From a virus, in the IMG/VR virus record IMGVR_UViG_3300031857_020965, positions 1-36,476 of that record: a stretch of 36,476 nt of DNA; one strand, 5' to 3'. Positions 4,825 through 31,939 of the stretch are shown piece by piece. Position numbers and translations under genes: made by a program. Each line of letters begins with the position of its first letter. The first letter of the stretch is position 1. The notes beneath the pieces are model-generated. The model worked only from the letters and a program-made list of their open reading frames with translations. It did not search any database and was not told the origin of the DNA.

Positions 4825-4826
4825 AT

Positions 4827-9915: not shown

Positions 9916-9937
9916 GTTATACCCTTTGCGAATAAAG

Positions 9938-12130: not shown

Positions 12131-12131
12131 T

Positions 12132-13982: not shown

Positions 13983-13990
13983 TATACACC
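13983..13990 (-). promoter_or_regulatory. Putative late promoter element GGTGTATA
   Basis: Exact copy of an 8-mer that recurs before late genes in this window. It lies in the short gap after the peptidase stop and 22 nt before the ATG of the 53-aa gene. The flanks are T-rich upstream and A/T-rich downstream, as at the other copies. Confidence 0.6.
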
Positions 13991-13996
13991 AAAGAA

Positions 13997-14923
13997 TTAT
14001 AGGTAACTATCAAACCCGTAATCTGGTAATTTTTGAACAGGAAAGCCATCAAAATTGCTAAAAGCATAGGCACCATTTTGGGCCAACATACCTGCGGCAA
14101 CATCACTATGAATTAAAAAAGATCCGTCTGGAACTGGACCCCATTCTGGATGACCACCATCATTCCATTTACCCCAAGAGTTTTGTACCAAAAAACTTAA
14201 ATCTCCACTAGTATCATCACAAGCTATCCATGCCATAGCATGGGCCCAACTTCCACTAACTTTAGCAAATCCCTTTTTATCTCTTGTGTTACTGAAGCCA
14301 TAACTAGAACACACCGCTAATCCATAACCGTTAGCTAATGCGTCTCGTGCTTCTTCTATTGTTTTTACAAGACTAACCGTTTTTATTTGATGGTCATTAG
14401 CAAGATCTATTACTTTGTCAGGTAAACCCCTACCTCCCCATCCTGCCCCCAAATTACCATTATATTTAGTTAGATCTACAATTCCTTTATAATCTTTTCT
14501 TACTAATATCCCACCAATTTTACTTACAAATTCTGCTGCTCTAGCACAACTCATGCCTTGACCAGCCCATCCGCGAGCACCATAAATTCCTTCGGTAGCG
14601 CCTCGTGCTATCCAACTTTCTCTTTCTCTATGAATATCTATTTCTATAGCTCTACTAATATCACAAGCATTTCTTGTAGCATGACTTACACAGTCTCCTG
14701 TTGTTTGTCTCTCATTATATGGGTTTTTATCAAACTTTAATACGCTTTTATATGGAACAGAGAGTTTACCTTTACCGCTGCCATTAATACGCTTTGCTCC
14801 ATCTCCAAAATATGCATATTTAGATTCTTCTAATAATCTATTAAATATGTGTTCTTCAAATATACAACCACTAAATCCTTGACGATATCGATCATATAAT
14901 TCTTTTGGAGATAATCTTGCCAT
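13997..14923 (-). CDS. Papain-like (C1-type) cysteine peptidase
   Basis: 308 residues. The triad is readable: QTTGDCVSHATRNA (Gln73 oxyanion, Cys78 nucleophile), SWAHAMAWIACDD (His228) and FLVQNSWGKWNDGG (Asn248), the C1 order and spacing. A conserved-looking GWAGQGMSCARAAEFV segment near 118-133 fits the same fold. There is no signal peptide or evident propeptide, so it probably acts in the cytoplasm or as a virion component. The ATG overlaps the stop of the upstream gene (TAATG). Phage C1 peptidases are uncommon. Cleaving peptide crosslinks or host or virion proteins are both possible; the neighbouring holin-like and membrane genes suggest a late envelope role. Confidence 0.82.
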   Translation of the reverse strand: MARLSPKELYDRYRQGFSGCIFEEHIFNRLLEESKYAYFGDGAKRINGSGKGKLSVPYKSVLKFDKNPYNERQTTGDCVSHATRNACDISRAIEIDIHRERESWIARGATEGIYGARGWAGQGMSCARAAEFVSKIGGILVRKDYKGIVDLTKYNGNLGAGWGGRGLPDKVIDLANDHQIKTVSLVKTIEEARDALANGYGLAVCSSYGFSNTRDKKGFAKVSGSWAHAMAWIACDDTSGDLSFLVQNSWGKWNDGGHPEWGPVPDGSFLIHSDVAAGMLAQNGAYAFSNFDGFPVQKLPDYGFDSYL

Positions 14924-15408
14924 TATTTAGACCCTTCATTACAAGCCCATGCTAATGCCTTAAAGCCATCTACAGCCTGTTGTCTTAATTTATTGTCTAA
15001 CATTAAGCTATCATCTCCTAAACTAGCCACAATAACGCTGTTAGTCGCCTTGGCTAATTTTGGATATCTTCCTTTTATATCTAGCTGAAGCATAACCCCA
15101 GCCAACTTATTAGCCTGTCTAACCTCTTCGGTATTTTTTATTACCATATCTTCATTATCTAAACTTATTAAAGTAGCTAAATCATTATATAATGAGGCTA
15201 GTCTTAACCCATCCTTTTTTCTATCTTGATTTTCTTTGAGAGCATCAACTACGGTTTGACATTCATCTAATAATTCTACATTAGATGGTTTTTCTACAAC
15301 AACAGTAGTATTATTAGAAGGAGAAACATTAATAATATTTGATAAGTCTGGCTTAAATAAACCTATCAGGATTAGTATAGCGGCTAATGATAGAACTAAG
15401 TTTTTCAT
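14923..15408 (-). CDS. Hypothetical anchored or secreted protein
   Basis: 161 residues from ATG 15408, chosen because AGGAAG lies 4 nt upstream and the ATG overlaps the previous stop (ATGA). MKNLVLSLAAILILIGLF is a signal-anchor-like hydrophobic N-terminus, followed by a Ser/Asn linker. The body (residues 50-160) is helical, with several charged heptads. No family recognised. An N-in anchor with an external helical domain would suit a spanin-like or peptidase-partner role, but this is inference. Confidence 0.6.
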   Translation of the reverse strand: MKNLVLSLAAILILIGLFKPDLSNIINVSPSNNTTVVVEKPSNVELLDECQTVVDALKENQDRKKDGLRLASLYNDLATLISLDNEDMVIKNTEEVRQANKLAGVMLQLDIKGRYPKLAKATNSVIVASLGDDSLMLDNKLRQQAVDGFKALAWACNEGSK

Positions 15409-15779
15409 ACTTCTTCCTTTGTGCAAACTACTGGAGATAAATATGGGAACATTTGATCAGCAACCTTTACCGCTTCTGTACAGCCACACTCATTTGCTAA
15501 ATCTCTTGTTTGTTTCCAACTAACAACCAACTTAAAGAAAATATCTTCTTTGCTTGTAACCACAGGTTTAACATTTGGCACTACTACTGCTACAGGAGTT
15601 ATGGGTTTTAGTGGAGAAACGTTCTTCAGTTTTTCTACTAATCCACCCAAGAACTGTTGTGCTGGACTTAATTTATCCTTAAATAATACCCACAATACTA
15701 TACCAACACCAGCATATAAGGCCAAATCCATTGGACCAACTTTACTTGCAAATTGTTCAAAACTTTCTGCGTAATTCAT
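15405..15779 (-). CDS. Hypothetical single-pass membrane protein
   Basis: 124 residues. One transmembrane segment near 17-33 (MDLALYAGVGIVLWVLF), then a Val/Pro-rich linker (PITPVAVVVPNVKPVV) and a C-terminal helical region with a CGC pair and a final Cys. The start overlaps the upstream gene by 4 nt and its stop overlaps the next ATG. Likely a cofactor of the adjacent anchored protein; function unknown. Confidence 0.58.
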   Translation of the reverse strand: MNYAESFEQFASKVGPMDLALYAGVGIVLWVLFKDKLSPAQQFLGGLVEKLKNVSPLKPITPVAVVVPNVKPVVTSKEDIFFKLVVSWKQTRDLANECGCTEAVKVADQMFPYLSPVVCTKEEV

Positions 15780-16162
15780 ATTCCGGCCTCTCTTTTAATA
15801 AAAACACCAGTATTTCTAAAAATTGTAACGGTAGCATCAATAGTAGCACTCACCATGATCATGAGTATATTTTTGATGTACCTATGTATAATAGGTTCTA
15901 TCATGTTTGGAACAAATGGGATATCTATTATTAAAAATATTTTATCATAAAAACCATTGAGAAGATCCATTGCTAATGTTTTTTTATCAGGTCCACTTAA
16001 GTCATTTCCAATAGCTTCTATTATTTGTACAATACTAGCGGTAGTTAATTGCAAAAGTTTCCACGCTTCAGCAAGAGCGAATCGCTGAACTTCTTTAAAT
16101 TTATCTTTACTATTATTTATTAGTTTTTCTACTTCGAGTTTTATTAGATCTTGACTTGACAT
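15776..16162 (-). CDS. Hypothetical late protein, membrane-associated
   Basis: 128 residues, helical throughout. A DIPFVPNMIEPIIHRYIK segment near residues 79-96 and a following hydrophobic helix (ILMIMVSATIDATVTIF) read like a conserved membrane-peripheral domain. AGGAG lies 8 nt before the ATG, inside the end of the holin-like gene, with which it overlaps by 50 nt. No family recognised. Grouping with the holin-like gene suggests the lysis module. Confidence 0.55.
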   Translation of the reverse strand: MSSQDLIKLEVEKLINNSKDKFKEVQRFALAEAWKLLQLTTASIVQIIEAIGNDLSGPDKKTLAMDLLNGFYDKIFLIIDIPFVPNMIEPIIHRYIKNILMIMVSATIDATVTIFRNTGVFIKREAGI

Positions 16163-16445
16163 TATTTTTTCTCCTAGTTATCTTAATTGGCTCTTGTTGT
16201 TTTATCAATTCGTTATTATTTTCTGAAACAATTTTTTTAATTTCATTACGTCCTTTTATATATCTAAATAAAACTGCTAGTTGGCCTATGATTAGTATAA
16301 GAGCTTCTAGACCCTTGCTAGTTTCTGCTATAAGATCTTCTTTTTGAGAATTATTGCTAATTACTCCTAATAAAAAAGCTCCACTAAATATAAAACTTAC
16401 CAGAGTAAACCAAAATTCACTCGTTTTATAGCCGGGTTTTATCAT
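16113..16445 (-). CDS. Holin-like membrane protein
   Basis: 110 residues with two transmembrane segments (about 11-30 and 46-63) joined by a short acidic loop, and a long, very basic C-terminal tail rich in Lys, Arg and Asn. This is the architecture of many class II holins, which open the inner membrane at lysis. It shows no sequence signature strong enough to name a family. A GGTGTATA element is 39 nt upstream, consistent with late expression, and downstream genes include other membrane proteins and a cysteine peptidase. No classical endolysin is visible in the window. Confidence 0.55.
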   Translation of the reverse strand: MIKPGYKTSEFWFTLVSFIFSGAFLLGVISNNSQKEDLIAETSKGLEALILIIGQLAVLFRYIKGRNEIKKIVSENNNELIKQQEPIKITRRKNNVKSRSNKTRSRKTNK

Positions 16446-16484
16446 AATATTATCTCTAGATAATGATGATATGCAATATATTTA

Positions 16485-16492
16485 TATACACC
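16485..16492 (-). promoter_or_regulatory. Putative late promoter element GGTGTATA
   Basis: Exact copy of the recurrent 8-mer, 39 nt before the holin-like ATG in the 108-nt gap between that gene and the 106-aa gene. It is followed by TAAATATAT, so this copy also contains a T4-late-like TATAAATA. Confidence 0.6.
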
Positions 16493-16509
16493 AATACAGA
16501 TCCTTCAAC

Positions 16510-16527
16510 GATCTCAATTAGATCTCA
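16510..16527 (-). repeat. Two direct copies of TGAGATC
   Basis: Two 7-bp direct repeats, 11 bp apart start to start (about one helical turn), just upstream of the GGTGTATA element before the holin-like gene. Such spacing suits an operator for a dimeric regulator, but only this one pair is seen. Confidence 0.3.
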
Positions 16528-16543
16528 TTTAAATTGATATTTG

Positions 16544-16566
16544 GACTATCTGTTTATAAGATAGTC
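16544..16566 (-). terminator. Stem-loop at the end of the 106-aa gene, possible terminator
   Basis: GACTATCT and AGATAGTC form a perfect 8-bp stem with a 7-nt loop that spans the stop codon. No T-run follows on the minus strand (CAAATATC), so termination may be weak. It could alternatively stabilise an mRNA end. Confidence 0.4.
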
Positions 16567-16874
16567 ACGGTACCATCTTCATTTATAGTGAATTGACCAA
16601 CAACACCGGAACCTTCTGAGATAGCTTCTGGTTTTACGCTAGATAATAAAGCTCCTAGTTTAGCGTGTAGTTCAAAAACTTCTTTAGCATCAGACCCAAG
16701 AGCCTCAGCAATTTCTGCTGGAGTAGCTCTAGGATTTTTCCAAAAATTATTAGCTCCTTGATTAAAGGCCATTGCCATTTGTTGAAAAGTTTGACGAGTT
16801 TGATTTTTGAGCATATTGGCCGCACGAACTGCTGGGTCTACTTCTGGAACTGATGGTTGGTTAAGAATACTCAT
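16554..16874 (-). CDS. Hypothetical small late protein
   Basis: 106 residues, family not recognised. The N-terminal two thirds are helical, with a QTRQTFQQMAMAFNQGANNF segment, then ATPAEIAEALGSDAKEVFELH, which resembles a short helix-turn-helix or helical bundle. The C-terminus GQFTINEDGTVTIL is a beta-hairpin-like tail. GGAG lies before the ATG (ATGGAGAAATTAAAATG). It may be a minor structural or tail-region protein. It sits between the sulfotransferase and the holin-like gene. Confidence 0.58.
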   Translation of the reverse strand: MSILNQPSVPEVDPAVRAANMLKNQTRQTFQQMAMAFNQGANNFWKNPRATPAEIAEALGSDAKEVFELHAKLGALLSSVKPEAISEGSGVVGQFTINEDGTVTIL

Positions 16875-16875
16875 T

Positions 16876-17676
16876 TTAATTTCTCCATATTTCTTGGTTG
16901 CTATATTTTTGTACTAGGAACTGCCCTAGTATCTTATTACTATCATGAGGAACTGGCAAAATTTGTGGTCTTATAGAATGTAGATTTGGAATTCTATGAA
17001 CTCCTTCATCATCTTCTTTTGTATATTGCTCAACATTATTAAAATTATGTTGGAAATATGGTACGTCTAGATAATCATACACTCTTTTTAAGCTATGAGA
17101 CGGATTTGAGGTAAGTTCATCAAATTCTAAAAACAATAATTTATCACCATAACCCCTACTAATAGCATCTTTAACTCTATTATAGGCCAATCCAACTGGT
17201 TGAGATGAATTTGACCAAATATCACATCGTCCTTCTACTGTTTGGGCTTTAAAATAATCGCTTTGTTCAAAATTCCACTGAGAGAATCCTGTGCTTTTGC
17301 GCCACAATTTTTCAAAACTACTTAATATTTCAGAAAGATTTCGTACTGGTACAATAATTTTGGGAGTTTGGCCCGTTATAAACTCTATCATTTCTATTAA
17401 ACTTAGCCATCCTCGTCCTTTATCAATAATAATATTTTTATCTGTTGAATGATAGCTATTTAATATGTTTTGTAATACTCTTTTGAGCTGATTATAATCA
17501 ACGCCTTCGGCCTGATGTTCAATTAATCTGTCCCATTGATTTCTTACATTAAATAAAATATCATGACATCCACTAGTAGCTTTGCTAACAAATAAATTAT
17601 TGTTTTGAGCTAATATATTGCACAATAATGTGCTACCGGAACGAGGTAGGCCGCTAATATAATAAAAGTTTTTCAT
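16876..17676 (-). CDS. Sulfotransferase family protein
   Basis: 266 residues. The N-terminal GLPRSGSTLLCNIL (residues 9-22) is the PAPS 5'-phosphosulfate loop. IIVPVRNLSEILSSF near 109-123 matches the 3'-phosphate-binding strand and helix with Arg and Ser. A DYLDVPYFQHNF segment near the end is also family-like. It would transfer sulfate from PAPS to a sugar or protein. The gene follows directly after the big fibre gene, so virion or host-surface glycan modification is plausible. Any substrate claim is inference. The 74-nt gap upstream holds a T-run but no convincing promoter. Confidence 0.8.
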   Translation of the reverse strand: MKNFYYISGLPRSGSTLLCNILAQNNNLFVSKATSGCHDILFNVRNQWDRLIEHQAEGVDYNQLKRVLQNILNSYHSTDKNIIIDKGRGWLSLIEMIEFITGQTPKIIVPVRNLSEILSSFEKLWRKSTGFSQWNFEQSDYFKAQTVEGRCDIWSNSSQPVGLAYNRVKDAISRGYGDKLLFLEFDELTSNPSHSLKRVYDYLDVPYFQHNFNNVEQYTKEDDEGVHRIPNLHSIRPQILPVPHDSNKILGQFLVQKYSNQEIWRN

Positions 17677-17750
17677 ATGTATATGATAGAATCAAAAAAA
17701 ATTTTTCAAAGTGCTAAGTCGATATTATTGAATTCTTCTAAACTAATTGT

Positions 17751-19640
17751 TTAGCCATAGGAGATCTCAACACCCTCAACATGAGCAACCCATCGTATAG
17801 TTTCTTCATCTTTACCAGTTACATTTATCTGTAGTGCGCTATTTGAGTTATCGGCAGTAATCTCTACATCATAAGCTATATCATCTTTAATATCTGTGCC
17901 AAGCGTACTTACGGTGCCAATCAAACTGGTTGTTCCATCTTCATTCTTGATCGCAACTTTACGAATACAATGAACAGCTTTGCTACCGCCATTAATAATA
18001 CCAGCGATATTTATTGTAGCAAATAGTGCTTTACCAGATGGTATAGTTAATTGAATACTACTTCCATCTAAAAATAATGTGGTAGCAGTATTGCTTGAGG
18101 TAATATTTCGTAAAACAAAATCCACACGTTGGGCGTCCCCATTATTTGCGAATGATCCAGCAGAGTTTGCTTCCATACCAAAACGGTCTGCGACAGCATT
18201 AAGACCACCATTGACTGAACTGTAGTAACCGCTTGCGGTGTTGTTGAATCCGCCGCTGACTGCGCTGCCAGTTCCCGCGGCGACGTTAAATGAGCCGCCG
18301 CCGACTACGCTGTAGTTGCCGCTAGCGGTGTTGTTGGTACCGCCGCCAACGGTGCTGTACCAGCCGCTGGCGGTGTTAAATGAGCCGCCACCTACGGTGG
18401 CGCATTCTGCGGCGGCTGTGTTAACACCGCCCCCACCGATAGTGCCGCCACCGCCGCTGGCGGTATTGTTCAAGCCGCCGCCGATTGTACTGAAATTGGC
18501 AGTGGCAGAGTTATTATCTCCTCCTCCAACTGTGGCCCTACCACAGAAGCTAAGCGTCGGATCAGAACCACTAGCGGTATTATTATTTCCTCCACCAACT
18601 GCGCTGAACCAGTTGGTGGCAACATTATCTCTTCCGCCATTGATCACGCTGTATTGGCCGCTGGCAGTATTGTTTTTGCCTCCGGTAATAGCGCTATAAG
18701 TTTTGCTAGCGCTGTTCTGTGCGCCGCCACCGACTACGCTGTAGTTGCCACTTGCAGTGTTGTTGCTGCCGCCACCAACTGTGCTTCGGCCATATTGCGC
18801 CCGATTAGTTGCAGTATCACGTTCACCAGAAGTAATGTTGTTTTTGCCGCCGCTAATGGTGCTGTACCAGCCGCTACTGGTATTATTCATTCCTCCACCA
18901 ACGGTACTACGAGGAGAGCTACTAGTGTTGTCTGATCCGCCACCAATAACGCTACCATCTCCACTAGCAACCATATTGCCACTAGCTCTTATTAGTTGCC
19001 AATCAACAGCATAAGTTCCTCTAGGATCTCCACCACCATCTCTTTGTAAAGCTCCATTTCCGCTGGGGCTAATAATTATATTACCACTAGAACTACTAAT
19101 AGTATTATTATCTAAAATAAGATTATCTACACTAATAGACCCTACAACATTTAATCGATTGCCATCAAATGTTATATTACTTTCAGCATTAATACCAGTA
19201 CTAGTACCTGTGCTAGTAAGCAATCTATTATCACCACTATTGCTTATGGTTGGAAGCAAACCGCTAACACTACTATTAAAATTAGTAATATCGCTGGCAA
19301 CATGATTATGACCAACAAAACTTACTCCTGATGTACTAATAGTTAAACTATTAAGATTATCATTATAAGATATATTAATGCCTGATCCACTAACTAAAAA
19401 ACCATTTCCTATAATATCTTGTATATCTTCTGGATTAATGACAATATCACCACCATCTCCACCGATATATGGTAAACTATTCCATGGAGTTATTCCATCT
19501 CCTATTTTTAGCTTTTTTGTATCTTTTTCGTAGCCTGGCTCTCCTAGTTTTAGTATCTCTCCACCAGGCTGTGGTTCGCTTGCTGCCCATTCAGCTGCGG
19601 TCCCTCTTCTTAATTTTATTATAGTGTGTTTATTTGACAT
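17751..19640 (-). CDS. Tail fibre / receptor-binding protein with Mtd-like N-terminus and 16 glycine-rich head repeats
   Basis: 629 residues. The N-terminal about 60 residues (IIKLRRGTAAEWAASEPQPG, then LKIGDGITPWNSLPYIGG) match the major-tropism-determinant-type attachment domain of fibres. Residues 110-140 hold an ITNFNSSVSGLLP module also found in the neighbouring fibre. The middle is 16 units of the pattern VGGGxNNTASGxYS, like YadA/Hia left-handed beta-roll heads, which form trimers. The C-terminal 130 residues are a beta domain (LFLDGSSIQLTIPSGK, then IRWVAHVEGVEISYG). The repeat part is far richer in GC than the rest of the window. AAAGG precedes the ATG. It likely binds the host surface. 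Confidence 0.85.
   Translation of the reverse strand: MSNKHTIIKLRRGTAAEWAASEPQPGGEILKLGEPGYEKDTKKLKIGDGITPWNSLPYIGGDGGDIVINPEDIQDIIGNGFLVSGSGINISYNDNLNSLTISTSGVSFVGHNHVASDITNFNSSVSGLLPTISNSGDNRLLTSTGTSTGINAESNITFDGNRLNVVGSISVDNLILDNNTISSSSGNIIISPSGNGALQRDGGGDPRGTYAVDWQLIRASGNMVASGDGSVIGGGSDNTSSSPRSTVGGGMNNTSSGWYSTISGGKNNITSGERDTATNRAQYGRSTVGGGSNNTASGNYSVVGGGAQNSASKTYSAITGGKNNTASGQYSVINGGRDNVATNWFSAVGGGNNNTASGSDPTLSFCGRATVGGGDNNSATANFSTIGGGLNNTASGGGGTIGGGGVNTAAAECATVGGGSFNTASGWYSTVGGGTNNTASGNYSVVGGGSFNVAAGTGSAVSGGFNNTASGYYSSVNGGLNAVADRFGMEANSAGSFANNGDAQRVDFVLRNITSSNTATTLFLDGSSIQLTIPSGKALFATINIAGIINGGSKAVHCIRKVAIKNEDGTTSLIGTVSTLGTDIKDDIAYDVEITADNSNSALQINVTGKDEETIRWVAHVEGVEISYG
18185..18975 (-). 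repeat. GC-rich tandem repeat region coding for 16 GGG-x-NNTASG units
   Basis: About 790 bp of degenerate repeats with unit lengths of about 14-16 codons (longer where loops are inserted) inside the fibre gene. The left part (18240-18480) is the most GC-rich, about 60% by eye count on one line, compared with about 30% in neighbouring genes. The right part drifts toward the window's AT-rich composition. Long open frames on the opposite strand here are by-products of the repeats. Confidence 0.8.
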
Positions 19641-19665
19641 ATTTATATACCTTTATTAAATGAAT

Positions 19666-20160
19666 TTATAGTTGTGCAGCCGCAACAAAGCCTTGGTCAA
19701 TTTGTTCTTTAGATAAGCCTAGATATTGAGCTAGACTTTCTATTAAAGGATGATTTCGTTCTATATATGGAGCATATTCCCACTCTATTTTTGTTTTTTC
19801 TCTTAATTTTAAATCATTAATTGTATTAATTGCGTCTTCGACACTATTAAGACTAATATTATTATCTATTAACCATAATCTTATTTGACGAGCGCTAATA
19901 GTTTCTGGAACAACAACTGGAATAGGAACCCAGGTTCTAACTATATCAACGTATGGCTTATCTAAGTTTATAATTCTTGCGCTAATATCTTCTATTGTAT
20001 TTTCTGGTTGAGTAGGACTGTCATTACGAATAATATAATATCCAGCATCTATTAAGATATTAGTATCAAAAGTTTCGCCAGTAATTGCTGTGCCATTACT
20101 AAGAGTTAATGAGGAAGGATAAGAGTTAGTAATTTGCTGATTATTTATATTATAATACAT
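19666..20160 (-). CDS. Fibre-associated small protein (paralogue of the next upstream gene)
   Basis: 164 residues. The N-terminal half (IDAGYYIIRNDSPTQPEN, then KPYVDIVRTWVP) parallels the gene at 20176-20445. The C-terminal half has an ISARQIRLWLIDNNISL segment and helices (SVEDAINTINDLKLREKTKI, WEYAPYIERNHPLI) similar in style to tail-fibre assembly or attachment proteins. It lies between the two fibre genes, so a chaperone or connector role is likely but inferred. Confidence 0.62.
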   Translation of the reverse strand: MYYNINNQQITNSYPSSLTLSNGTAITGETFDTNILIDAGYYIIRNDSPTQPENTIEDISARIINLDKPYVDIVRTWVPIPVVVPETISARQIRLWLIDNNISLNSVEDAINTINDLKLREKTKIEWEYAPYIERNHPLIESLAQYLGLSKEQIDQGFVAAAQL

Positions 20161-20175
20161 TGTACTGCCCTATAT

Positions 20176-20445: not shown

Positions 20446-20455
20446 AATTTATTCC

Positions 20456-22855
20456 TTAGTTGGTTTTTTTGCCCATATAGTGACCCTGTACTATGCCAAC
20501 CCCCATACTTCTTAATAAGACTAAATATTTACCAGAAGAAAAAGTTGGTAATGGATTATACCAATCTGTTACAAAATTAGAATCAAAAGAAACTGTTGTG
20601 GTGGAGGACACCGTTATTTCTAGCATCACATCTACGCTTCTGTTTATTAAATCCCAACCCGTTCCTTCTGTAAAGTTTACGGCAGAACCATTCAATGTTA
20701 ACTGTTGAATTTGTCTATCAACATCATAGTTTATAGCAACATTACCGCTAACAGAACCCAGAGATAGTATTGGTGTTGGTGCCGATAGACCATCTTCTAT
20801 TATCATATATCTATTATAACTTAATTTACCATTTGAATATAAGACAAGACTATTATCTAATTGATTTGGGCCAGAACTTGTGTGAAATGTCATTCTAGTA
20901 GGAGTATATAAATTAACACCGGTGGGCTCGCCATCTGCTTGTGTTAATATTCTACCAACAACAGAATTCACTCCACTAGCATTAAGAGTAAATGTTCTGA
21001 TAACGCTAAGAGTATCATTATTTATAACTCCGGATGGACTATTCAATGTACCCCTGTTTCTGATAAGCTGTATTCGTGCTCCGGTGGTAGGCTCTATATT
21101 ATCATATGCTTCTAAATTACATAGCGCACTTAGTCCAGTATGACCAACACTATTATCATATATTAATTGTAAAGAACTAGTTAAATCATTAAATCTAAGA
21201 TAAGTTTCGGCATTAATATCAGTGTTAGCACCACCACTAGTTAATAATCTATTATTACCACTATTAGTTATTTTTGGTAATAGTCCACTAACAGCACTAT
21301 TGAAATCAGTAATATCTAAAGACTGGTGTTGATGACCACTAATACTAACATTAGTTCCATTAACACTCAGTGTTGAAAAATTTCCACTACTACTTGGTAT
21401 CCACAATGAATTATTGCTATTATATTGTAAAAATTGACCATTAGAAACTCCACTAATAGCCACATTGTGTAACTCTTCTAATTCAAAACCATTTTGAACT
21501 CTTACTTCTATTATGCCTTCATTTTGATGAGTTCTTATAATAGTACCAATTGCCACCATATGATCGGGAGCAGATGGTTTCGTTTTTGTTAAGCCTCCAG
21601 CAACTGTGGGACTTAAGTATAGAGTAGTTCCATTAACATCTCCAGTTGGGGCAGTAGGATTAAACTGATCAGTATCTAGTCCGGTTAAAGCTCCAAAAAC
21701 AATAACTTTCCCGGTACTCATATTACTAATATTTTCTGCTGTTAATCCATAAGTTTTACTACTTGTTAATTCACCACTAGCTTGAGCTAAAGAGATTGTG
21801 GGCATATCTCCTTGACCACCGTTAATATAAACAGCAGTCATTTTTGGAATTGGCGAACCAGTTTTATTGAATACTGTTGTAACTAAAGATTTAGCCTCAT
21901 TTAATAATACTCCTGATCCAGTAGCTTCTATGGTATAAACTCCACTAGCATTATTAACATTTATACCAGTGCCAGACAGTATGTTTTTCACTGGAAGTAA
22001 TCCGCTAACAGCACTATTAAAGTCTGTTATGTTTGTTGATATATGATTGTGTCCAACAACACTATAGTTGCCGCTAGGCTGTAACCCTGTAACTGAGATT
22101 GTATATGTGTTATTATTAAATGATGAATTAACATATCCAGAACCACTAATGCTTGGTAATAAGCCACTGACGCTGCTATTAAAATTAGTAATATCATTCG
22201 CTGTATGATTGTGTAATTTATCTAAACTATAATCTTTCCAAGATGCTGAAAATATACTATTTCTACTATAAACTCTATAAAGATAGACACCAGATAATCT
22301 ATTATAAAGTGTTCCTCCTATAGAGGTACCATTAAGTCCACCCGCTCCACTAGGCTTAATAACTACATACCAGTCTCCGTGTGTTGGAGAAGGAGGATCC
22401 GAAATTGTAGTTAGTAATGGTGCTGTAAAATCTGTTGGAATTATATATTGGCCGCCAGGTTCAGCAGTCGTATTGGTAGCACTTATAATTTGCCATCCTA
22501 GCTTATTTTGTGCTGCATATGATGAGGCTGTCAATATTGCTCGACCAAAACTAGTAGAATCAATAATATCTGTAGAGGGATGAGTATGACCAACCAGACT
22601 ATAATTACCGCTTGGTTGTAATCCAGTTACGCTAATAGTATATGTATCATCTATTAAGTTAGATGATATATAATCACCACCAACAATTGTTATAGGATTG
22701 GTTATGCCACTTCCAATTAAATTACTAATTTCACCAAAAGTAATTTTTTTAGTTGTGCCACTACCAGATGGATCATCCATAAATACTAAGATATCATCAT
22801 TAGATAATAATCCACTACCTTCTGGAAGATCTTTAAGTCTTATTATATTAATCAT
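20456..22855 (-). CDS. Large tail fibre protein
   Basis: 799 residues. The N-terminus (IIRLKDLPEGSGLLSNDDIL) looks like a baseplate-attachment segment. The body carries repeated modules of the type HxHxxxDITDFNSAVSGLLP, about five times, separated by beta-rich stretches with GNYSVVGHNH-like turns. The central part (about 320-460) has a VFNKTGSPIPKMTAVYINGG segment common in fibre or needle-like proteins. The C-terminus (INRSVDVMLEITVSSTTTVS) is a beta domain. The ATG overlaps the upstream gene's stop (ATGA). It is likely a trimeric adhesin. Confidence 0.83.
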   Translation of the reverse strand: MINIIRLKDLPEGSGLLSNDDILVFMDDPSGSGTTKKITFGEISNLIGSGITNPITIVGGDYISSNLIDDTYTISVTGLQPSGNYSLVGHTHPSTDIIDSTSFGRAILTASSYAAQNKLGWQIISATNTTAEPGGQYIIPTDFTAPLLTTISDPPSPTHGDWYVVIKPSGAGGLNGTSIGGTLYNRLSGVYLYRVYSRNSIFSASWKDYSLDKLHNHTANDITNFNSSVSGLLPSISGSGYVNSSFNNNTYTISVTGLQPSGNYSVVGHNHISTNITDFNSAVSGLLPVKNILSGTGINVNNASGVYTIEATGSGVLLNEAKSLVTTVFNKTGSPIPKMTAVYINGGQGDMPTISLAQASGELTSSKTYGLTAENISNMSTGKVIVFGALTGLDTDQFNPTAPTGDVNGTTLYLSPTVAGGLTKTKPSAPDHMVAIGTIIRTHQNEGIIEVRVQNGFELEELHNVAISGVSNGQFLQYNSNNSLWIPSSSGNFSTLSVNGTNVSISGHQHQSLDITDFNSAVSGLLPKITNSGNNRLLTSGGANTDINAETYLRFNDLTSSLQLIYDNSVGHTGLSALCNLEAYDNIEPTTGARIQLIRNRGTLNSPSGVINNDTLSVIRTFTLNASGVNSVVGRILTQADGEPTGVNLYTPTRMTFHTSSGPNQLDNSLVLYSNGKLSYNRYMIIEDGLSAPTPILSLGSVSGNVAINYDVDRQIQQLTLNGSAVNFTEGTGWDLINRSVDVMLEITVSSTTTVSFDSNFVTDWYNPLPTFSSGKYLVLLRSMGVGIVQGHYMGKKTN

Positions 22856-23094: not shown

Positions 23095-23129
23095 AATTAT
23101 TTTGCCTTTATTTAATAGAGTTATTTAAC

Positions 23130-23137
23130 TATACACC
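23130..23137 (-). promoter_or_regulatory. Putative late promoter element GGTGTATA
   Basis: Exact 8-mer copy, 35 nt before ATG 23094 and touching the stop codon of the upstream membrane gene. It would drive the 80-aa gene and the large fibre. Confidence 0.6.
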
Positions 23138-23454: not shown

Positions 23455-23470
23455 AAATAATAATTCCCAT

Positions 23471-23512
23471 AAAAATATAAGCTAGCGATATTATATACCA
23501 CTAGCTTATATT
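23471..23512 (-). terminator. Rho-independent terminator
   Basis: A perfect 12-bp inverted repeat (23474-23485 and 23501-23512) with a 15-nt loop; the minus-strand stem ends run into five T. It lies about 30 nt after the stop of the 23544-24134 gene and should end a transcript read leftward. Confidence 0.7.
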
Positions 23513-23543
23513 ACACTAAAACTGATTATAAATTCTCAATACA

Positions 23544-24134
23544 TCAGCCAGTTTTTTCTTTATATGTATCATTGACAACATTAGATCCTGAAGACATAAA
23601 TGTTAAATTACCTGGAACAGATCTAGTTGGTAAAGCAGCATTATCGTCTGCAAAAACATCTACGCTCACAACAGGATATCCAGATTCGAATTTACCAGTA
23701 TAGTCATTCCATTTGTTTTCACGAATAGCAGACGTAAAGCGTCTAGTTCTAACGCCTTGAACATAACTACTACCATTTTTAACTTTTTGATAATGAATAC
23801 TATGTATTAAGTTGGGAACCAAGGCTCCACTTAATAAGAAAGTATTAGCTGATCCATTGATATTAGTAGTAACTCTTTTTGAAATTGGACCAGGATTGTT
23901 ATATGCTAATGCGCCAGAACTGTATACTTTGTCAATATCATTAGTATCAACAACAGCAGAACCAAAAACACCAGCATCATATCTTGAAACTTCTACTCCA
24001 TCTAAAAGATTTGTATTAGATGCTTTTGCTACAGATCCACCATTTCCGCCAGCACCACTAGCAGTAGCATTTGGAGGAACTGTATCATATGGATTACCAT
24101 TAGTTTGAATTGCAACTACTTGTGAAATAGCCAT
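23544..24134 (-). CDS. Predicted abundant virion structural protein
   Basis: 196 residues from ATG 24134, preferred over 24185 because GGAG lies just upstream. The product is rich in Gly, Ala, Ser, Asn, Thr and Val and contains long beta-like stretches (VVAIQTNGNPYDTV, then RVTTNINGSANTFLLSGALV). Such composition is usual for decoration, tail tube or capsid-associated proteins. No family recognised. It has its own terminator (23471-23512) and a 97-nt gap upstream holding a one-mismatch late element, so it appears to be a single-gene unit, as is common for highly made structural proteins. Confidence 0.6.
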   Translation of the reverse strand: MAISQVVAIQTNGNPYDTVPPNATASGAGGNGGSVAKASNTNLLDGVEVSRYDAGVFGSAVVDTNDIDKVYSSGALAYNNPGPISKRVTTNINGSANTFLLSGALVPNLIHSIHYQKVKNGSSYVQGVRTRRFTSAIRENKWNDYTGKFESGYPVVSVDVFADDNAALPTRSVPGNLTFMSSGSNVVNDTYKEKTG

Positions 24135-24171
24135 TTTTTTCTCCATTAAATTAGGTAAATAATCAATAATT

Positions 24172-24179
24172 TTTACACC
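24172..24179 (-). promoter_or_regulatory. Weak copy of the late element (GGTGTAAA)
   Basis: GATTGGTGTAAA matches the recurrent element at seven of eight core bases plus the T-rich left flank. It lies 37 nt before ATG 24134, the position seen for exact copies. Confidence 0.4.
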
Positions 24180-24282
24180 AATCACTCTAAATATATTACA
24201 TTTTAGAATTAATCAAATAAATATAATCAATTTAAATATTAGTATTTTAGATAAATTTAGAGCCAATTAATATAATCACATA

Positions 24283-25443: not shown

Positions 25444-25453
25444 AGTAGTTTTT

Positions 25454-27058: not shown

Positions 27059-27306
27059 TAATAATATATCCTGATTGGGTAATTGGGTGAAAATGTAATT
27101 ATATTATTGTGTGATAATTCAGGAGATATTGATAGTGATCTATATAATATATTATTTCTACCAATAATAGATCTAGAATAATGAATAAAGCCATTGAAAT
27201 TATTATTGTTGGTAATATTATTATTGGTACTATAATTTATAAATTGACCAAAATAAGTTATTAACTTATTATTATTTATAGTAGAATTAATAATAAAATT
27301 AGACAT
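27058..27306 (-). CDS. Small Asn-rich hypothetical protein
   Basis: 82 residues with many Asn and Ile residues and no family. Composition tracks the extreme AT content here. Beta-like alternation in IINSTINNNKLITYFGQF suggests a small beta-structured virion protein. It overlaps the DeoC-like gene upstream by 8 nt and the large gene downstream by one base, which supports it being real. Confidence 0.5.
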   Translation of the reverse strand: MSNFIINSTINNNKLITYFGQFINYSTNNNITNNNNFNGFIHYSRSIIGRNNILYRSLSISPELSHNNIITFSPNYPIRIYY

Positions 27307-27943
27307 AATTAAGCTTTATGCTTTCTATTTGATTTGTACTAAATCCAAATGGTGACATTTTTTGAATATGTTGAATTTGATCATTTTTCCACACATTACC
27401 ATTCACAATAGTATTAATACCTGTTTTATTATTTAAATAAGCACAAGCAATTATATTGTCATCAATATTATCTAAAAATAATCCAGTTGATGGATAAACA
27501 ATATTTACACCACACTCTAATAATATTTCACAAGCTTTAATCAATAATTGGTGATCAAATTTGCGATATTCTAATATATATCTAAGTTGAATATTATGAT
27601 TATTACATAATGCTATATTTTTTTTAATATCATCTCTAAATTTAGCGTATTTTCTATTTACTACGTTAAAGTATGGCATAGTAACACTGACAAAATTTAT
27701 GCCAATATTTATTGTATCTACGATTAGATCCTGTCTACGCTCTATATCAGAAGAAGCTAATGGATAATCTACAAAACAACCTAGTTGAATTTGAGATGAT
27801 AATGAACAATTTTTTTTTATATATTTAATATGATGAATTGTTCCAAGAATACTAGATATTGGATACTGAATAACTGTTTCTATATTATTTTTAATATCGA
27901 TTTCTTTATCGTCAATATTATTAAGATAATATTCTATAAACAT
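27299..27943 (-). CDS. DeoC-like TIM-barrel protein, catalytic residues apparently lost
   Basis: 214 residues that follow the deoxyribose-phosphate aldolase pattern: LGCFVDYPLASSDIERR (compare VIGFPLG), a central FVSVTMPYFNVVNRKY, LRYILEYRKFDHQLL (compare VIIET) and NIVYPSTGLFLDNI (compare VKTSTGF). The Schiff-base Lys position is Tyr150. The Asp102 equivalent is Ser86 and the second Lys region reads IVNGN. The barrel seems kept and the chemistry lost. It lies next to the head protease and among late genes, so a structural or assembly role is more likely than nucleotide salvage. The family call rests on my own alignment by eye. Confidence 0.6.
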   Translation of the reverse strand: MFIEYYLNNIDDKEIDIKNNIETVIQYPISSILGTIHHIKYIKKNCSLSSQIQLGCFVDYPLASSDIERRQDLIVDTINIGINFVSVTMPYFNVVNRKYAKFRDDIKKNIALCNNHNIQLRYILEYRKFDHQLLIKACEILLECGVNIVYPSTGLFLDNIDDNIIACAYLNNKTGINTIVNGNVWKNDQIQHIQKMSPFGFSTNQIESIKLNYV

Positions 27944-28608
27944 TTAGTAAGTTTTTTCTTAATATGATCAATAGATTGATATGGACTTTCTCCAAAAATA
28001 CCATCAGCAAAACCATAATACACCGATTCTTCCGAATTTAATATCCAATCAGATTTATTAGATAATTGAGAAGTTATATGTTTTTTTACCATAGATCTCT
28101 TCCAGCTTTTTTCTTTAGCCATTGGGGATGTGATACTTTTTTCCGTAAAAATATCAATCATTTTAGAAGCTTCTTTTTCGGTCCATTTTAAATTACTCAA
28201 TGCCGCTTTGTGTTCGCCATCCAAAGTTAATGAGCCGTAATGTATTAACATATAAGCATTGGGCATTAAAATTCTAATATCAGCAGCTTGAAAAATAACA
28301 CCGCTAGCAGACTCGGCTTTAGCATAAGCTAAACAACCAATTGGAGATTCTGATTGTTGAATAGCGTCATAAATACCCAAACAATCAGACCAGTCTCCTC
28401 CAGGCATGTGCATATGAATAACTATTGGATCATATGATAATGTATTTAAATATCTTAAATTTTTTTCGAAAGCCACAGCACATCGATAATCAACACCATT
28501 TTCGTCTTCACTGTCCATTAGGTAAGAATGCAAATAAATTTCTCTATTTTCTGGATCAATACCATAATGGTGCAAATTTGTAAGTTTTTGTTCAAAATTA
28601 GATGTCAT
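27934..28608 (-). CDS. ClpP-like serine peptidase, probable prohead protease
   Basis: 224 residues with ClpP/SppA-type fold features. IVIHMHMPGGDWSDCLGIYD is the early beta strand and oxyanion Gly-Gly. AKAESASGVIFQAAD carries the nucleophile, best aligned as Ser100, and LMPNAYMLIHYGS holds His123. In phages such proteins usually mature the head by cleaving scaffold and capsid. The C-terminal part is helical and basic. It lies within the late unit a few genes after the scaffold-like gene. The alternative, a regulatory ClpP homologue, is less likely given the context. Confidence 0.78.
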   Translation of the reverse strand: MTSNFEQKLTNLHHYGIDPENREIYLHSYLMDSEDENGVDYRCAVAFEKNLRYLNTLSYDPIVIHMHMPGGDWSDCLGIYDAIQQSESPIGCLAYAKAESASGVIFQAADIRILMPNAYMLIHYGSLTLDGEHKAALSNLKWTEKEASKMIDIFTEKSITSPMAKEKSWKRSMVKKHITSQLSNKSDWILNSEESVYYGFADGIFGESPYQSIDHIKKKLTKCL

Positions 28609-29009
28609 AAAAGTATTTCTTTGATTTTATGATTTATAGTATCCATAACTTTACGATCTTCAAATGCTTTACCAAAAGAAATTCTAAATCTATATCTTGT
28701 AAAAATATCTAATGTTTCTACACCACTAATAGATTGTAATAATTCTGCAACAGTTTTAGTAATATCAAAATTAGTATGCCCAATCCAAAAATTAAAAATT
28801 TTAGTGCAATCTGTGTGTTCATTGAATGGGATGATACCCATAGTTGTTGCTAAAACATTATTTTTTTTGTATGTAGGTTGTTCTATATATTCTTCATTAT
28901 CCTCGATAATAGTGCTTTGATCATATCCTGGCCATTCAACAGCATCTGGATCACTACCATATGGATCTACCCATTTTTCCCAAATGATAACTGGTTCAAG
29001 ATTTAACAT
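28605..29009 (-). CDS. Hypothetical late protein
   Basis: 134 residues, no family recognised. The N-terminal part is acidic and Trp/Tyr-rich (IIWEKWVDPYGSDPDAVEWP), followed by a TTMGIIPFNEHTDCTKIFNFW segment and a helical C-terminus. It overlaps the protease by 4 nt and the upstream gene by 14 nt. It might be a minor head or neck protein; no direct evidence. Confidence 0.58.
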   Translation of the reverse strand: MLNLEPVIIWEKWVDPYGSDPDAVEWPGYDQSTIIEDNEEYIEQPTYKKNNVLATTMGIIPFNEHTDCTKIFNFWIGHTNFDITKTVAELLQSISGVETLDIFTRYRFRISFGKAFEDRKVMDTINHKIKEILL

Positions 29010-29319
29010 TTTTTTGAAAAGTTTCTAGTGGTTTAATAATAGCTGTATTATTGTTTAATGTATAATAATGATTTAGTTTATTTAAAATAAGATTAATAAA
29101 ATGTTCATCGATATTATTCTTATCTTGTAAAGATTTAATAATAGCGTTAAACAATAAACCATTATTTATGGCATATAACATAATAGCAATTTGATTAGCA
29201 CTATCATCAGAATAGTCATTATGATTAATAATAGTTTCAATACTGTCGTTGTCTATATGAAAAATTAGTTTAAAAATATTTTTAGATTTAGATTTTTTGC
29301 GGGAAAATAAATTAAACAT
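28996..29319 (-). CDS. Hypothetical small protein
   Basis: 107 residues from ATG 29319. An in-frame ATG at 29331 overlaps the upstream gene more and lacks a ribosome site; GGA lies 7 nt before 29319. The product is helical, with a basic start (MFNLFSRKKSKSKNIFKLIF) and an Asn-rich body. It has the size and style of small acidic-basic phage proteins encoded near head genes. Function unknown. Confidence 0.52.
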   Translation of the reverse strand: MFNLFSRKKSKSKNIFKLIFHIDNDSIETIINHNDYSDDSANQIAIMLYAINNGLLFNAIIKSLQDKNNIDEHFINLILNKLNHYYTLNNNTAIIKPLETFQKNVKS

Positions 29320-29320
29320 A

Positions 29321-29710
29321 TTATAATCCATATTTTATAGTGTCACCAATAATTGATAATTCATTTGGAATATTGGTATCTATAAAATTAAAAGTTTTCC
29401 AAAAGTATCCATCATGAGTATCTAATGGGGGTAATGTTAAACCATATAGTATATTTATATTATTATTATCAAATAAATTATTTAATATATCATTATTAAT
29501 AGCTAATAATTGTACTCGATCTTCATAATTATCTATATATTTATCATTAATAAATATAGTTTTAATAAATGTAATGATATTTTTTTGTAAATTTTTATAA
29601 TTATTTGGTGTAAATTTTGGAAAAATAATCTTATTTTGATCTATAGATAAAATATATTTTTCATTATTTTTTAAATTGGCACTAACTATACTTAGAATAA
29701 TATTAATCAT
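29321..29710 (-). CDS. Hypothetical protein
   Basis: 129 residues, AT-driven Asn and Ile richness, no family recognised. Mixed alpha/beta with a YGLTLPPLDTHDGYFWKTF segment near 90-108 that may be a conserved loop. It starts one base after the sigma-factor stop and its stop lies one base before the next gene's ATG, so co-transcription is clear. Confidence 0.52.
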   Translation of the reverse strand: MINIILSIVSANLKNNEKYILSIDQNKIIFPKFTPNNYKNLQKNIITFIKTIFINDKYIDNYEDRVQLLAINNDILNNLFDNNNINILYGLTLPPLDTHDGYFWKTFNFIDTNIPNELSIIGDTIKYGL

Positions 29711-29711
29711 A

Positions 29712-30359
29712 TTAATTACTCATATTACGAATTTTATCAATGGCTTTTTTAATCCCTTGTCTAACTGCTTCTCTAGTAATAGAAAATTTTTGACCAATTT
29801 CAGCAAATGTTTTATTTTCAAAATAATACATTCTAATATATTCACATTGTTTTTCAGATAAAATATTATTTTTTGGCGATAATATTGTTTCAAAATATTC
29901 TTTGAGATTTTTATCACTTTCTGCTTTTAATATAATATCAACTGGATTTTGCTTTTCAACACATAAAATATCTAATAATGAACATTCTTCAGTATTGTCA
30001 AAACCACTATGAATGTCTATGCCTCTTTTGCTTTTTTTATTTTTTTTACGACTAACATAGCTTTTTATAGCCCATATCGCACATTGATTTCGATATGAAT
30101 ATTTAGTTTTCTGTTGACCAGTTTCTCCTTTGCGGTCTTTATCCCATCTCCAATCTGCCATCATAATACAGTTGGCTACACTGGAAATAGCATCTTCACT
30201 CTTCAGCATTTCTTTACCGATATTTCCTGGAAAATTTTTGCCAAATTTAGAGATAGCTTTTTGTGCTAGATTAATGTAAAAATCTAAAGATTCAAACTGT
30301 ATATTTTGATGATCCTGATAAGCAAGTTTTCTATTACCAACAGATACAATATCTATCAT
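29712..30359 (-). CDS. Phage sigma-70-family factor (late sigma-like)
   Basis: 215 residues. Residues about 60-110 (EDAISSVANCIMMADWRWD, then KYSYRNQCAIWAIKSYVSRKKNK) match sigma region 2, including the -10 recognition helix with aromatic and basic residues. Residues about 165-210 (LSEKQCEYIRMYYFENKTFA and the HTH FSITREAVRQGIKKAIDKI) match region 4. There is no region 1 or 3. The size and the split are like T4 gp55 and other phage late sigma factors. It probably directs host polymerase to phage late promoters, and the recurring GGTGTATA element in this window is a natural target. Confidence 0.8.
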   Translation of the reverse strand: MIDIVSVGNRKLAYQDHQNIQFESLDFYINLAQKAISKFGKNFPGNIGKEMLKSEDAISSVANCIMMADWRWDKDRKGETGQQKTKYSYRNQCAIWAIKSYVSRKKNKKSKRGIDIHSGFDNTEECSLLDILCVEKQNPVDIILKAESDKNLKEYFETILSPKNNILSEKQCEYIRMYYFENKTFAEIGQKFSITREAVRQGIKKAIDKIRNMSN

Positions 30360-30413
30360 ATATTTTCCTTATTAAGAAGTCCTAATTTAATTATTATTTG
30401 AAGTCTAAACTAA

Positions 30414-31376
30414 TTACTTAGTTAATTTTTTCCATTGTTCTGGATCTGGTCTATCCGGATCGCCTGGTTTTGCAGGTCGATATTTTTTGCCTTCTCGTTC
30501 TTTTTTCTTTCTAATATTATCCCATAGTCCAGGTTTATCACCAGACATGGTTTCCTCAACAGGGGCGGTAACTATAGTATCGTCCTTTGAGGGTTGAAAA
30601 GTATAGTGCGGAAGATTTTTTATCTTAACTTTTTTTTTACGTTCAGATGCTTCTGTATCAGTCTCTGTGCGACCGAACATAACAAAATTATGGATTGTTA
30701 ACATATAGTCTTCCGTCACAGCAATTTTACCCTGTAGCCAGCTTTCTGTCAAGGCTTCTTTTACCGCAGGATTGTCTAATGCTTGTAATATAATATTTGC
30801 ATGTGTCGCAATAGATTTAATAGAACCCACACTCATTTCATAAAAATCATTTTTGTATTCCATAAGTTCTTGTTCTACTGTTTCTTGTTCCATCTCTTCA
30901 ACCTGTGTAAAGTCTTGACCTTTAGATTTTTTAATTTCCATTAGTTTTTTCTTTAAAAGTTCTAATTCTATTTCTTTTTCAATTTTTTCCATTTCTATTT
31001 CTATTTGGTCATTTTCTTCTTCATCTTCCTTCATATCATTTTCATATTCATTATTCATTAATTCGCAAGCTTTAATATTTAATTTTTCTTTGGTAGCTTT
31101 TGGTAAAGCTGCGACAAATTCTGGGCCTTTCTTTTTAGCAAAGTTATAGAGTTTCTTTAAGAAAGCATCATAACTCATTTGACCCTTCATGCGACCAAAA
31201 TTGCTGATAGCATCTGGAATATCTTGTGGACTAACAATTGGAAATGAGCGAGTTTGTGGAAATAAGAAATCGCTGTCCTTTAAATCGCTTCTTTTTTTGC
31301 CTTTGTATGTTTTTTGTGCAGCTTCTGACAATGTCTCATTTACTGAACCTAAAATATCTTTGATTCGCTCACTCAT
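30414..31376 (-). CDS. Predicted head scaffold or core protein
   Basis: 320 residues. The N-terminal region (FLFPQTRSFPIVSPQDIPDA, then ISNFGRMKGQMSYDAF) is a short conserved-looking domain that I recall as DUF6582-like. A highly charged Glu/Lys coiled coil covers residues about 110-170. It is followed by a VGSIKSIATHANIILQALDN domain with WLQGKIAVTEDYMLTIHNFV, a pattern common in phage head-region proteins. The tail is basic and Pro-rich. Charged coiled coil plus neighbourhood of a protease suggest scaffold or prohead core. GGGG lies before the ATG (AAAGGGGCAAATAATG). Confidence 0.62.
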   Translation of the reverse strand: MSERIKDILGSVNETLSEAAQKTYKGKKRSDLKDSDFLFPQTRSFPIVSPQDIPDAISNFGRMKGQMSYDAFLKKLYNFAKKKGPEFVAALPKATKEKLNIKACELMNNEYENDMKEDEEENDQIEIEMEKIEKEIELELLKKKLMEIKKSKGQDFTQVEEMEQETVEQELMEYKNDFYEMSVGSIKSIATHANIILQALDNPAVKEALTESWLQGKIAVTEDYMLTIHNFVMFGRTETDTEASERKKKVKIKNLPHYTFQPSKDDTIVTAPVEETMSGDKPGLWDNIRKKKEREGKKYRPAKPGDPDRPDPEQWKKLTK

Positions 31377-31398
31377 TATTTGCCCCTTTATAAATTAA

Positions 31399-31908
31399 TT
31401 ACCATGCTTTGCAAGACCAATATCTTGCTTTCCACTTTGGACCAGGATTATCACAATTGTGTCTAGCTCTAAAACTTTTTCTACGTTCTGGAATATTCTT
31501 TTTGATAGTCATATTAGGATCGCCAAAATTAACTTTAACAACATTACCATTTTCGTTTTTAACATAAACACTAAATTTTTTAGGACCATCTGGTGTTCTA
31601 AATGGCTTATTAAGAGTGACTTTACGGCCCTGATATTCTGATCCTAAAATTTTGCCTTCTTCATCATATATCTCTGAGGCTTCTATCTCCCATACAAACT
31701 CATCCCATTCATCATCCCATGAACAATTTTGTGCAAAAAGTTCATCATGAACTTCTTCTATTAAATTACCTTTTGTGCGCGTTTGACCTAAACAAATAGC
31801 TACTCTTTGTTTAGTATCTGGATAATCCTTTTTCATTGTCTCATTACTCATACAGCGAGACACATACTTATTTTTATCTTCGTTTTGTTTTCTTTTTGGA
31901 ATGGGCAT
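31399..31908 (-). CDS. DUF5872-like head-region protein
   Basis: 169 residues. The N-terminus (MPIPKRKQNEDKNKYVSRCM, then KDYPDTKQRVAICLGQ) is a short module found at the start of many phage head proteins. The C-terminus FGDPNMTIKKNIPERRKSFR, then ARHNCDNPGPKWKARYWSCKAW, fits the DUF5872 pattern. The middle is acidic. AAGGAG precedes the ATG, with a GGTGTATA element 23 nt upstream, so it begins the head transcription unit. Domain names are from memory. A structural or capsid-assembly role is likely. Confidence 0.68.
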   Translation of the reverse strand: MPIPKRKQNEDKNKYVSRCMSNETMKKDYPDTKQRVAICLGQTRTKGNLIEEVHDELFAQNCSWDDEWDEFVWEIEASEIYDEEGKILGSEYQGRKVTLNKPFRTPDGPKKFSVYVKNENGNVVKVNFGDPNMTIKKNIPERRKSFRARHNCDNPGPKWKARYWSCKAW

Positions 31909-31931
31909 ATATTATCTCCTTGATAGTATAT

Positions 31932-31939
31932 TATACACC
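31932..31939 (-). promoter_or_regulatory. Putative late promoter element GGTGTATA
   Basis: Exact 8-mer copy, 23 nt before ATG 31908 in the 42-nt gap after the glycosyltransferase stop. In this copy the sequence continues AT, giving a TATAAT inside the element. Confidence 0.6.

Follow-up and report, generated by a model that had tools for sequence, protein, structure and literature searches.

The stretch of DNA analysed here, hereafter the window, is a virus record of 36.5 kilobases (kb; 36,476 nucleotides, nt) from IMG/VR (IMGVR_UViG_3300031857_020965). All of its genes lie on the minus strand in the set of open reading frames (ORFs) that we made for this analysis with ATG starts only. Positions 632-12742 (minus strand) carry nucleotide and replication genes, namely an exonuclease, a dNMP kinase, a primase, DnaB, UvsX, a ribonucleotide reductase and a dCMP deaminase, and above these lie a tail-fibre-like gene, a head maturation protease and a phage sigma factor. 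Between genes of this second part recurs the word GGTGTATA, which an earlier sequence-only reading had proposed as a candidate late promoter. The placement of the word, its strand bias, the lack of a -35 box and the sigma gene in the same block support this proposal, and suggest that the genes concerned are late.

GGTGTATA was found four times exactly, starting at 13990, 16492, 23137 and 31939, each time on the minus (coding) strand and never on the plus strand. The variant GGTGTAAA, said to occur once, has three copies, of which those at 27511 (minus) and 29607 (plus) lie within genes, besides the one at 24179. For the five sites the T-rich left flanks are as had been quoted and the distances of 22-39 nt to the ATG hold (Table 1), but the copy at 23137 is not wholly intergenic and overlaps the preceding stop codon by one base. 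The genes directly downstream had been called head, fibre, structural or lysis genes. These labels are putative for all five: of the four genes scanned, those at 22852 and 23544 had no match in PHROGs or Pfam, that at 16113 had none in Pfam (Pfam scan only), and that at 31399 had none in Pfam and a PHROG match without known function, the fifth being the gene of 53 amino acids (aa) at 13799. The run of genes after 31908 does hold the sigma factor and the head maturation protease. A relaxed version reported before 19640 begins 11 nt before the ATG and includes the ribosome-binding-like AAAGG; this site, at 19651, was rejected as a promoter because it sits over the ribosome-binding region. By count alone the word is weak evidence, as shuffled windows had 1.26 copies on average and 4/100 reached four. 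By position it is not: all four copies fall in sense-strand gaps at most 100 nt from a start codon (P=5.9e-8, window and its 15.8-kb extension).

Table 1. Sites of the element and associated features in the window.
Feature	Position	Strand	Distance from end of element to ATG (nt)	Remarks
GGTGTATA site, form TTATTTGGTGTATAATATAC	31932..31939	-	23	Before ATG 31908; heads the sigma gene run
GGTGTAAA site	24172..24179	-	25	Before ATG 24146; GGTGTA at 5/10 orthologs including the window
GGTGTATA site	23130..23137	-	35	Before ATG 23094; GGTGTA at 3/4 orthologs including the window
GGTGTATA site	16485..16492	-	39	Before ATG 16445; GGTGTA at 3/7 orthologs including the window
GGTGTATA site	13983..13990	-	22	Before ATG 13960 (53-aa gene); GGTGTA at 3/5 orthologs including the window
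First gene of the sigma run	31399..31908	-		PHROG 7595 family, unknown function
Second gene of the sigma run	30414..31376	-		No assigned function
Phage sigma factor, 215 aa	29712..30359	-		Pfam Sigma70_r4, E=1.2e-12
Head maturation protease, later in the sigma run	27934..28608	-		PHROG 94, E=5e-19
Probable intrinsic terminator, hairpin and U run	23474..23512	-		After gene 23544-24146; fold z-score -5.4

We extended the analysis to related DNA. The overlapping contig G001, which contributes the 15.8-kb extension, brings the window to 52 kb and adds a clamp loader, rIIA and rIIB as well as the end of a DNA ligase, identified through its ortholog in G037. Relatives found through the sigma factor were G037 (122 kb, 74% identity), G038 (80 kb, 64%) and G042 (32 kb, 66%), whose DNA had not been before the earlier reader. 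A search with the ribonucleotide reductase, which found 558 relatives and from which 80 loci were kept, gave contigs of up to 205 kb; the eight longest reductase-bearing ones were added, and a sigma ortholog was present in 6 of the 8. A profile built from ten sigma orthologs found 197 relatives in IMG/VR; the best 80, of which 51 were non-redundant, were retained. No close isolate emerged from the protein searches, the best values being an expectation value (E) of 4e-5 for the sigma factor and 48% identity for the reductase; the terminase was 22-26% identical to isolates among the matches listed (12 of 41 records). A pattern search for sigma relatives in genome contigs gave 43 matches, none of which was a relative.

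By the terms of the sequence-only reading, the proposal would fall if the word were just as common within genes or on the opposite strand; we found it concentrated in sense-strand gaps upstream of genes. Across the three relatives 8 of the 12 copies of GGTGTATA were in sense gaps at most 100 nt before an ATG (P=1.7e-11), although gaps of this kind account for just 9.8 kb in a total strand length of about 470 kb. Over 12 genomes, 37/63 copies lay in sense upstream gaps, compared with 2/56 for the word with its letters reversed; for the 6-mer GGTGTA the values were 102/380 and 7/567. When the 75 nt before 695 gap-bearing genes of these genomes were scanned, GGTGTA was present 100 times and its reverse complement nine times, and it ranked highest among 60 permutations of its letters (runner-up 41, median 12). 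Enrichment of the 6-mer was seen in each of the 12 genomes, and in one of them, G015, the 8-mer was not enriched (0/1). In a de novo search of 139 gaps from the window, G001, G037 and G038, variants of TTTGGTGTATAATA ranked first. In the wider family, GGTGTATA is present in 31/32 related records. Around the 51 non-redundant sigma loci, scanned over up to about 12.6 kb each, GGTGTA preceded 77/279 gap-bearing genes in 43/51 loci and its reverse complement none; as a division of these loci into groups A and B depended largely on whether a site headed the run, which makes it circular, only the totals are used. In four other phage stretches GGTGTA was found before 0/83 genes, and as a control of the pipeline the T4 late consensus TATAAATA was recovered before 12/26 T4 genes. 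The signal is one of non-random placement and not of abundance. A weight matrix, trained partly on the scanned DNA, matched mainly within genes at low scores (38 hits upstream and 73 elsewhere at a score of at least 10) and was not used as proof.

The anatomy of the element was derived from 31 aligned sites of four lineages, six of them within predicted genes; the sites were anchored on GGTGTA, so conservation of the core follows by construction. The fuller form of GGTGTATA is TTGGTGTATAAT, followed directly by an AT-rich stretch, and it can be parsed as GGTG-TATAAT, with a -10 hexamer as its second half. Upstream of the flanking T's there is no conservation: no position beyond -2 exceeds 0.27 bit, the maximum being at -33, and the absence of a matching -35 box reported earlier is thus upheld. 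Nor did the 31 sites show a second, upstream element of the kind found in bipartite promoters. In 29/31 of them the element starts 27-53 nt before the ATG, and in many AGGAG-type sequences stand separately, downstream of it.

Other genes of the same phages (rIIA, the ligase and a glycosylase-like gene) have promoters of the TTGACA-N17-TATAAT type. To compare the two signals we took those Wplus genes that have orthologs in three or more further genomes, grouped them by block and counted gap-bearing cells. The motif was present in 24/66 cells of virion and sigma genes, 1/33 of replication genes, 7/66 of rII, clamp and ligase genes and 0/5 of glycosyltransferase genes, and the TTGACA type in 4/66, 6/33, 30/66 and 0/5 cells, respectively. 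In gapless cells the motif was rare throughout (7/112, 0/135, 2/87 and 0/28, in the same order). Both signals occurred in one gap 8 times over the 695 gaps, compared with an expectation of 22. In G037 the two signals were counted by gene block. The minus block, which holds the terminase together with what are probably a major head protein (E=1.2e-4) and a minor tail gene (E=5e-4), had the motif before 4/7 gap-bearing genes and the TTGACA type before none; the plus block at 37-104 kb had the motif before 2/51 and the TTGACA type before 17/51; and the plus block at 104-122 kb, which holds the sigma gene, had them before 3/6 and 0/6, respectively. A weakly tail-like gene in the packaging and head block of G037 is also led by the motif, as is endonuclease VII in both G037 and G038. 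Endonuclease VII is a late gene in T4.

The sigma factor has a clear region 4: seven orthologs that were scanned matched Sigma70_r4 with E values from 2.9e-11 to 2.6e-13, and the sigma profile matched the C-terminal parts of RpoD and SigA. Region 2 gave no match in Pfam. An AlphaFold2 model (mean predicted local distance difference test score, pLDDT, of 83, with a poor linker) predicts a helical, region 2-like domain (residues ~22-110), a flexible linker and a region 4 helix-turn-helix (~150-214). Residues 22-215 of the model align with SigA chains across regions 2 to 4, though displaced at the hinge, as seen in the comparison with 5tjg_F (Z 9.2, 155 aligned residues, root-mean-square deviation 14.9). 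An earlier model made from 4 sequences (mean pLDDT 64), with its fold searches, was not relied on. Over 50 sigma sequences residues 87-94 are at least 96% conserved, and the recognition helix of region 4, R196-E197-A198-V-R200-Q201, is almost invariant. In each of five records (G035 being nearly identical to G037) this protein was the sole region 4 match at E<=0.1.

The sigma factor is encoded in the same block as the sites, and its orthologs, 40 to 74% identical to that of the window, accompany the motif in 10/12 genomes. In 7/10 genomes GGTGTA stands at the head of the sigma gene run, at a distance of 28-31 nt from the first ATG and within diverged flanks; at this place G032 has AGTGTATA and G030, as read by eye, has TTGTGTATA, while G011 has none. 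The run through the head maturation protease may form one operon. Among 47 readable sigma loci, 19 have GGTGTA within 60 nt of the run head. When a peptide pattern was used to reset where the PHROG 7595 gene starts (15/45), several loci were anchored wrongly, and this count was set aside. One sigma clade of 8 loci (FastTree support 1.0) differs in the motif itself, its first base being T in 7/13 gap hits compared with 5/99 elsewhere (P=2.9e-5). In region 2 of these sigma factors W-K/E replaces aromatic-D, as seen in the three of the eight that were printed.

Taken together, the findings lead us to the view that the late promoters of the phage have GGTGTATA as their only core element and that the phage's own sigma factor reads it on the host core polymerase; judging from sequence we put the probability of this at about three in four. 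The two-domain sigma factor would replace the host sigma on the host RNA polymerase core and bind GGTGTATA, with region 2 reading GGTG and the -10-like TATAAT and melting the AT-rich stretch beyond. By analogy with phiEco32, transcription would start ~6-9 base pairs (bp) past the element. A -35 box would go unused, region 4 serving mainly to hold the polymerase flap, and early genes would be transcribed from the host-type TTGACA-N17-TATAAT promoters. Since the element stands at the head of the run that contains the sigma gene, we also propose a self-amplifying step, in which the first sigma molecules come from upstream read-through and the element then amplifies their synthesis, giving a self-reinforcing late switch. 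More tentatively, and with slightly less confidence than an even chance would imply, we suggest that this sigma family keeps a canonical region 4 and still works at single-element promoters, with region 4 devoted to the flap, as gp33 is in T4, or to a phage co-activator, and that the presence of the sigma gene in its own regulon would make it a self-amplifying late switch throughout an uncultured family of large phages.

Several observations weigh against this reading. The run head lacks GGTGTA in 28/47 readable loci; some of these absences are due to mis-called starts, and in a large group of loci the called start of the first gene lies inside the end of the neighbouring gene. The gene calls are our own ORFs of at least 40 aa with ATG starts only. 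Most copies of GGTGTA in the 12 genomes (278/380) are outside sense upstream gaps, the enrichment is weakest in G011 (P=0.026), and overall abundance is not raised, with 104 copies of GGTGTATA and 104 of the reversed letters in 32 records. Gene cells and loci are related by descent, and the P values therefore overstate their independence. The covariation of sigma and motif is a single event and was examined after G011 had stood out. The motif also precedes 7/66 of the rII, clamp and ligase cells and is thus not confined to virion genes. At the ortholog of the 53-aa gene in G038 the site (28817-28824, minus strand) stands just 11 nt before the ATG, nearer by 19 nt than its counterpart in the window; this leaves no room for a ribosome-binding site and is too tight for a start site before the ATG. 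Finally, G031 and G015 have the motif and no detectable sigma gene in the contig; as these contigs may be fragments, nothing is concluded from this absence.

The most serious alternative, which we nevertheless regard as unlikely, is that the sites are promoters of the extended -10 kind for the host primary sigma, possibly helped by a phage activator or by a change in the host polymerase, and that the phage sigma reads something else. The TATAAT-like 3' half is a standard -10, and the G and T bases preceding it are reminiscent of an extended -10. In rows chosen for that word, AGTG also stands directly before the -10 of some early promoters of these phages, and the two contigs with the motif and no sigma gene would fit as well. 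In the classical extended -10, however, TG lies one bp upstream of the -10 (PMC11598898), and the TG of the element is one base nearer. The motif and the TTGACA type also rarely share a gap and serve different gene groups, and the first base of the motif covaries with region 2 of the phage sigma.

The element could instead be the binding site of a phage activator or repressor and not a core promoter. A short conserved word close to start codons would suit such a site, and this explanation gains slightly on the preferred one because 28 of the 47 readable loci lack it at the run head. We hold it to be improbable, as the element includes a -10-like half and keeps one fixed orientation, and the interval between 45 nt upstream and 34 nt downstream of its start has no other conserved promoter-like feature. 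A signal acting at the RNA level within the 5' leader, in processing, stability or translation, would account for the sense-strand bias and for the usual position of 27-53 nt before the ATG. It is more improbable still: the two of the five window sites that were folded were not unusually structured (z 1.0 and -0.3), the window has no Rfam match at gathering scores, and in many sites the AGGAG-type sequences stand apart from the element. That these are chance words of an AT-rich genome with its genes on one strand would agree with the window shuffles and the equal totals of the word and its reversal. For the family as a whole chance placement is refuted by the position tests, in which the reversed letters, the sigma loci (77 vs 0) and the other phages all differed, and we give it practically no weight. 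Recognition of GGTGTATA by the phage sigma thus remains the preferred reading, and would provide large uncultured phages with a testable late promoter and its likely partner sigma, and with a mark for probable late operons in metagenomic DNA. The sigma-promoter pairs, including the clade with the shifted motif, would also form a natural series for studying region 2 and its reading of the bases ahead of the -10.

A number of further observations were made alongside. The terminator hairpin at 23474..23512 overlaps a weak AGTGTAAT (AGTGTA motif), and its inverted repeat also occurs in G037 (~111900) and G038 (~42786), that is in three lineages. Inside the dCMP deaminase gene, at its 3' end, GGTGTATT occurs both in the window (12279-12286, minus strand) and in G038 (~27196-27203, minus strand), ~150 nt and 101 nt, respectively, before the ribonucleotide reductase, and G023 has GGTGTA 46 nt before its reductase; the reductase may also be under a late promoter. 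In the sigma loci of clade C4 (L260, L266, L274 and others) GGGGTA is found before 7/74 gap-bearing genes, possibly as a second form of the late element. In gaps of G011 and G032 CTGCCAAA or AAAATGG recurs before genes, perhaps as an inverted repeat, and in gaps of many sigma loci GTTGGCT and AGCCAAT recur, possibly as the arms of another terminator hairpin. The motif leads a gene pair in G001 (29943-31596, minus strand) and its orthologs, a trypsin-like protease followed by a subtilase. In the window an HNH/homing endonuclease gene (5708-6115, minus strand) adjoins UvsX, and the product of 16876-17676 (minus strand) is related to cyanophage proteins annotated as sulfotransferase (25-34% identity to annotated records).

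In the literature consulted, mostly as abstracts, we did not meet GGTGTATA as a late element of a phage sigma. Its letters do stand inside one tabulated sigma70 promoter (PMC5587285). Sigma70-like promoters are described throughout Ma-LMM01 (PMC5780444), and the sections of PMC11598898 that we used do not identify late promoters of phage K. In phage 7-11 a sigma factor with region 4, as here, directs late genes through the host RNA polymerase; the late promoters read by its gp47 are bipartite, GTAAtg-(16)-aCTA (PMC8948821), whereas we find one element.

The late promoters of T4, to which the element had been likened, resemble it in architecture but not in sequence or sigma factor. They work with gp55, gp33 and the gp45 clamp, and activation by this sliding clamp once loaded on DNA belongs to their type. 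T4 uses an 8-bp TATA box with no upstream element and no equivalent of sigma4 (PMC2988020), for which TATAAATA is one spelling of the consensus (PMC5587285), and gp33 sits on the polymerase flap (PMC7892883). Common to both are a TATA-like element without a -35 box (in T4 about one helical turn before the start), AT-rich DNA downstream of it, and the service of virion genes; the phages studied here also carry rIIA, rIIB and clamp-loader genes. The T4 box itself was found before 11/693 gap-bearing genes of the 12 genomes, with 14 for its reverse complement, and was discarded as a candidate. The present sigma has a region 4, which has no counterpart in the T4 late polymerase, and hhalign comparisons of A2 and A3 with T4 gp55, and of A3 with the HTVC008M late sigma, gave no meaningful match (single sequences, low power).

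The closest known case is phiEco32, with the T4 late promoters next. Promoters of its gp36 consist of a single tAATGTAtA without a -35, and transcription starts 6-8 bp downstream (PMC8948821, PMC4331800). As proposed here, one short element is used by a small phage sigma on the host core; TGTATA is common to tAATGTAtA and GGTGTATA, and the phiEco32 element serves middle and late genes while early genes have sigma70 promoters. The differences are that AA precedes TGTATA in phiEco32 and GG (or AG) does so here, so that its consensus is not matched, and that phiEco32 is a coliphage of 77.5 kb, whereas the DNAs compared here are contigs from uncultured phages and reach about 205 kb. An hhalign alignment with gp36 over region 2 (56-100 vs 46-94) was weak (E=0.008, probability 4.8). 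Above all, gp36 lacks region 4, for which it also has no Pfam match, and this lack has been offered as the explanation of the missing -35 (PMC8948821); in the present sigma this region is clear. Comparable systems are already known, and it is the GGTGTATA signal and its pairing with this sigma that look new. If the sigma does read the element, having a region 4 would be separated from using a -35 box, in departure from that published account, and one polypeptide would join what T4 splits between gp55 and gp33.

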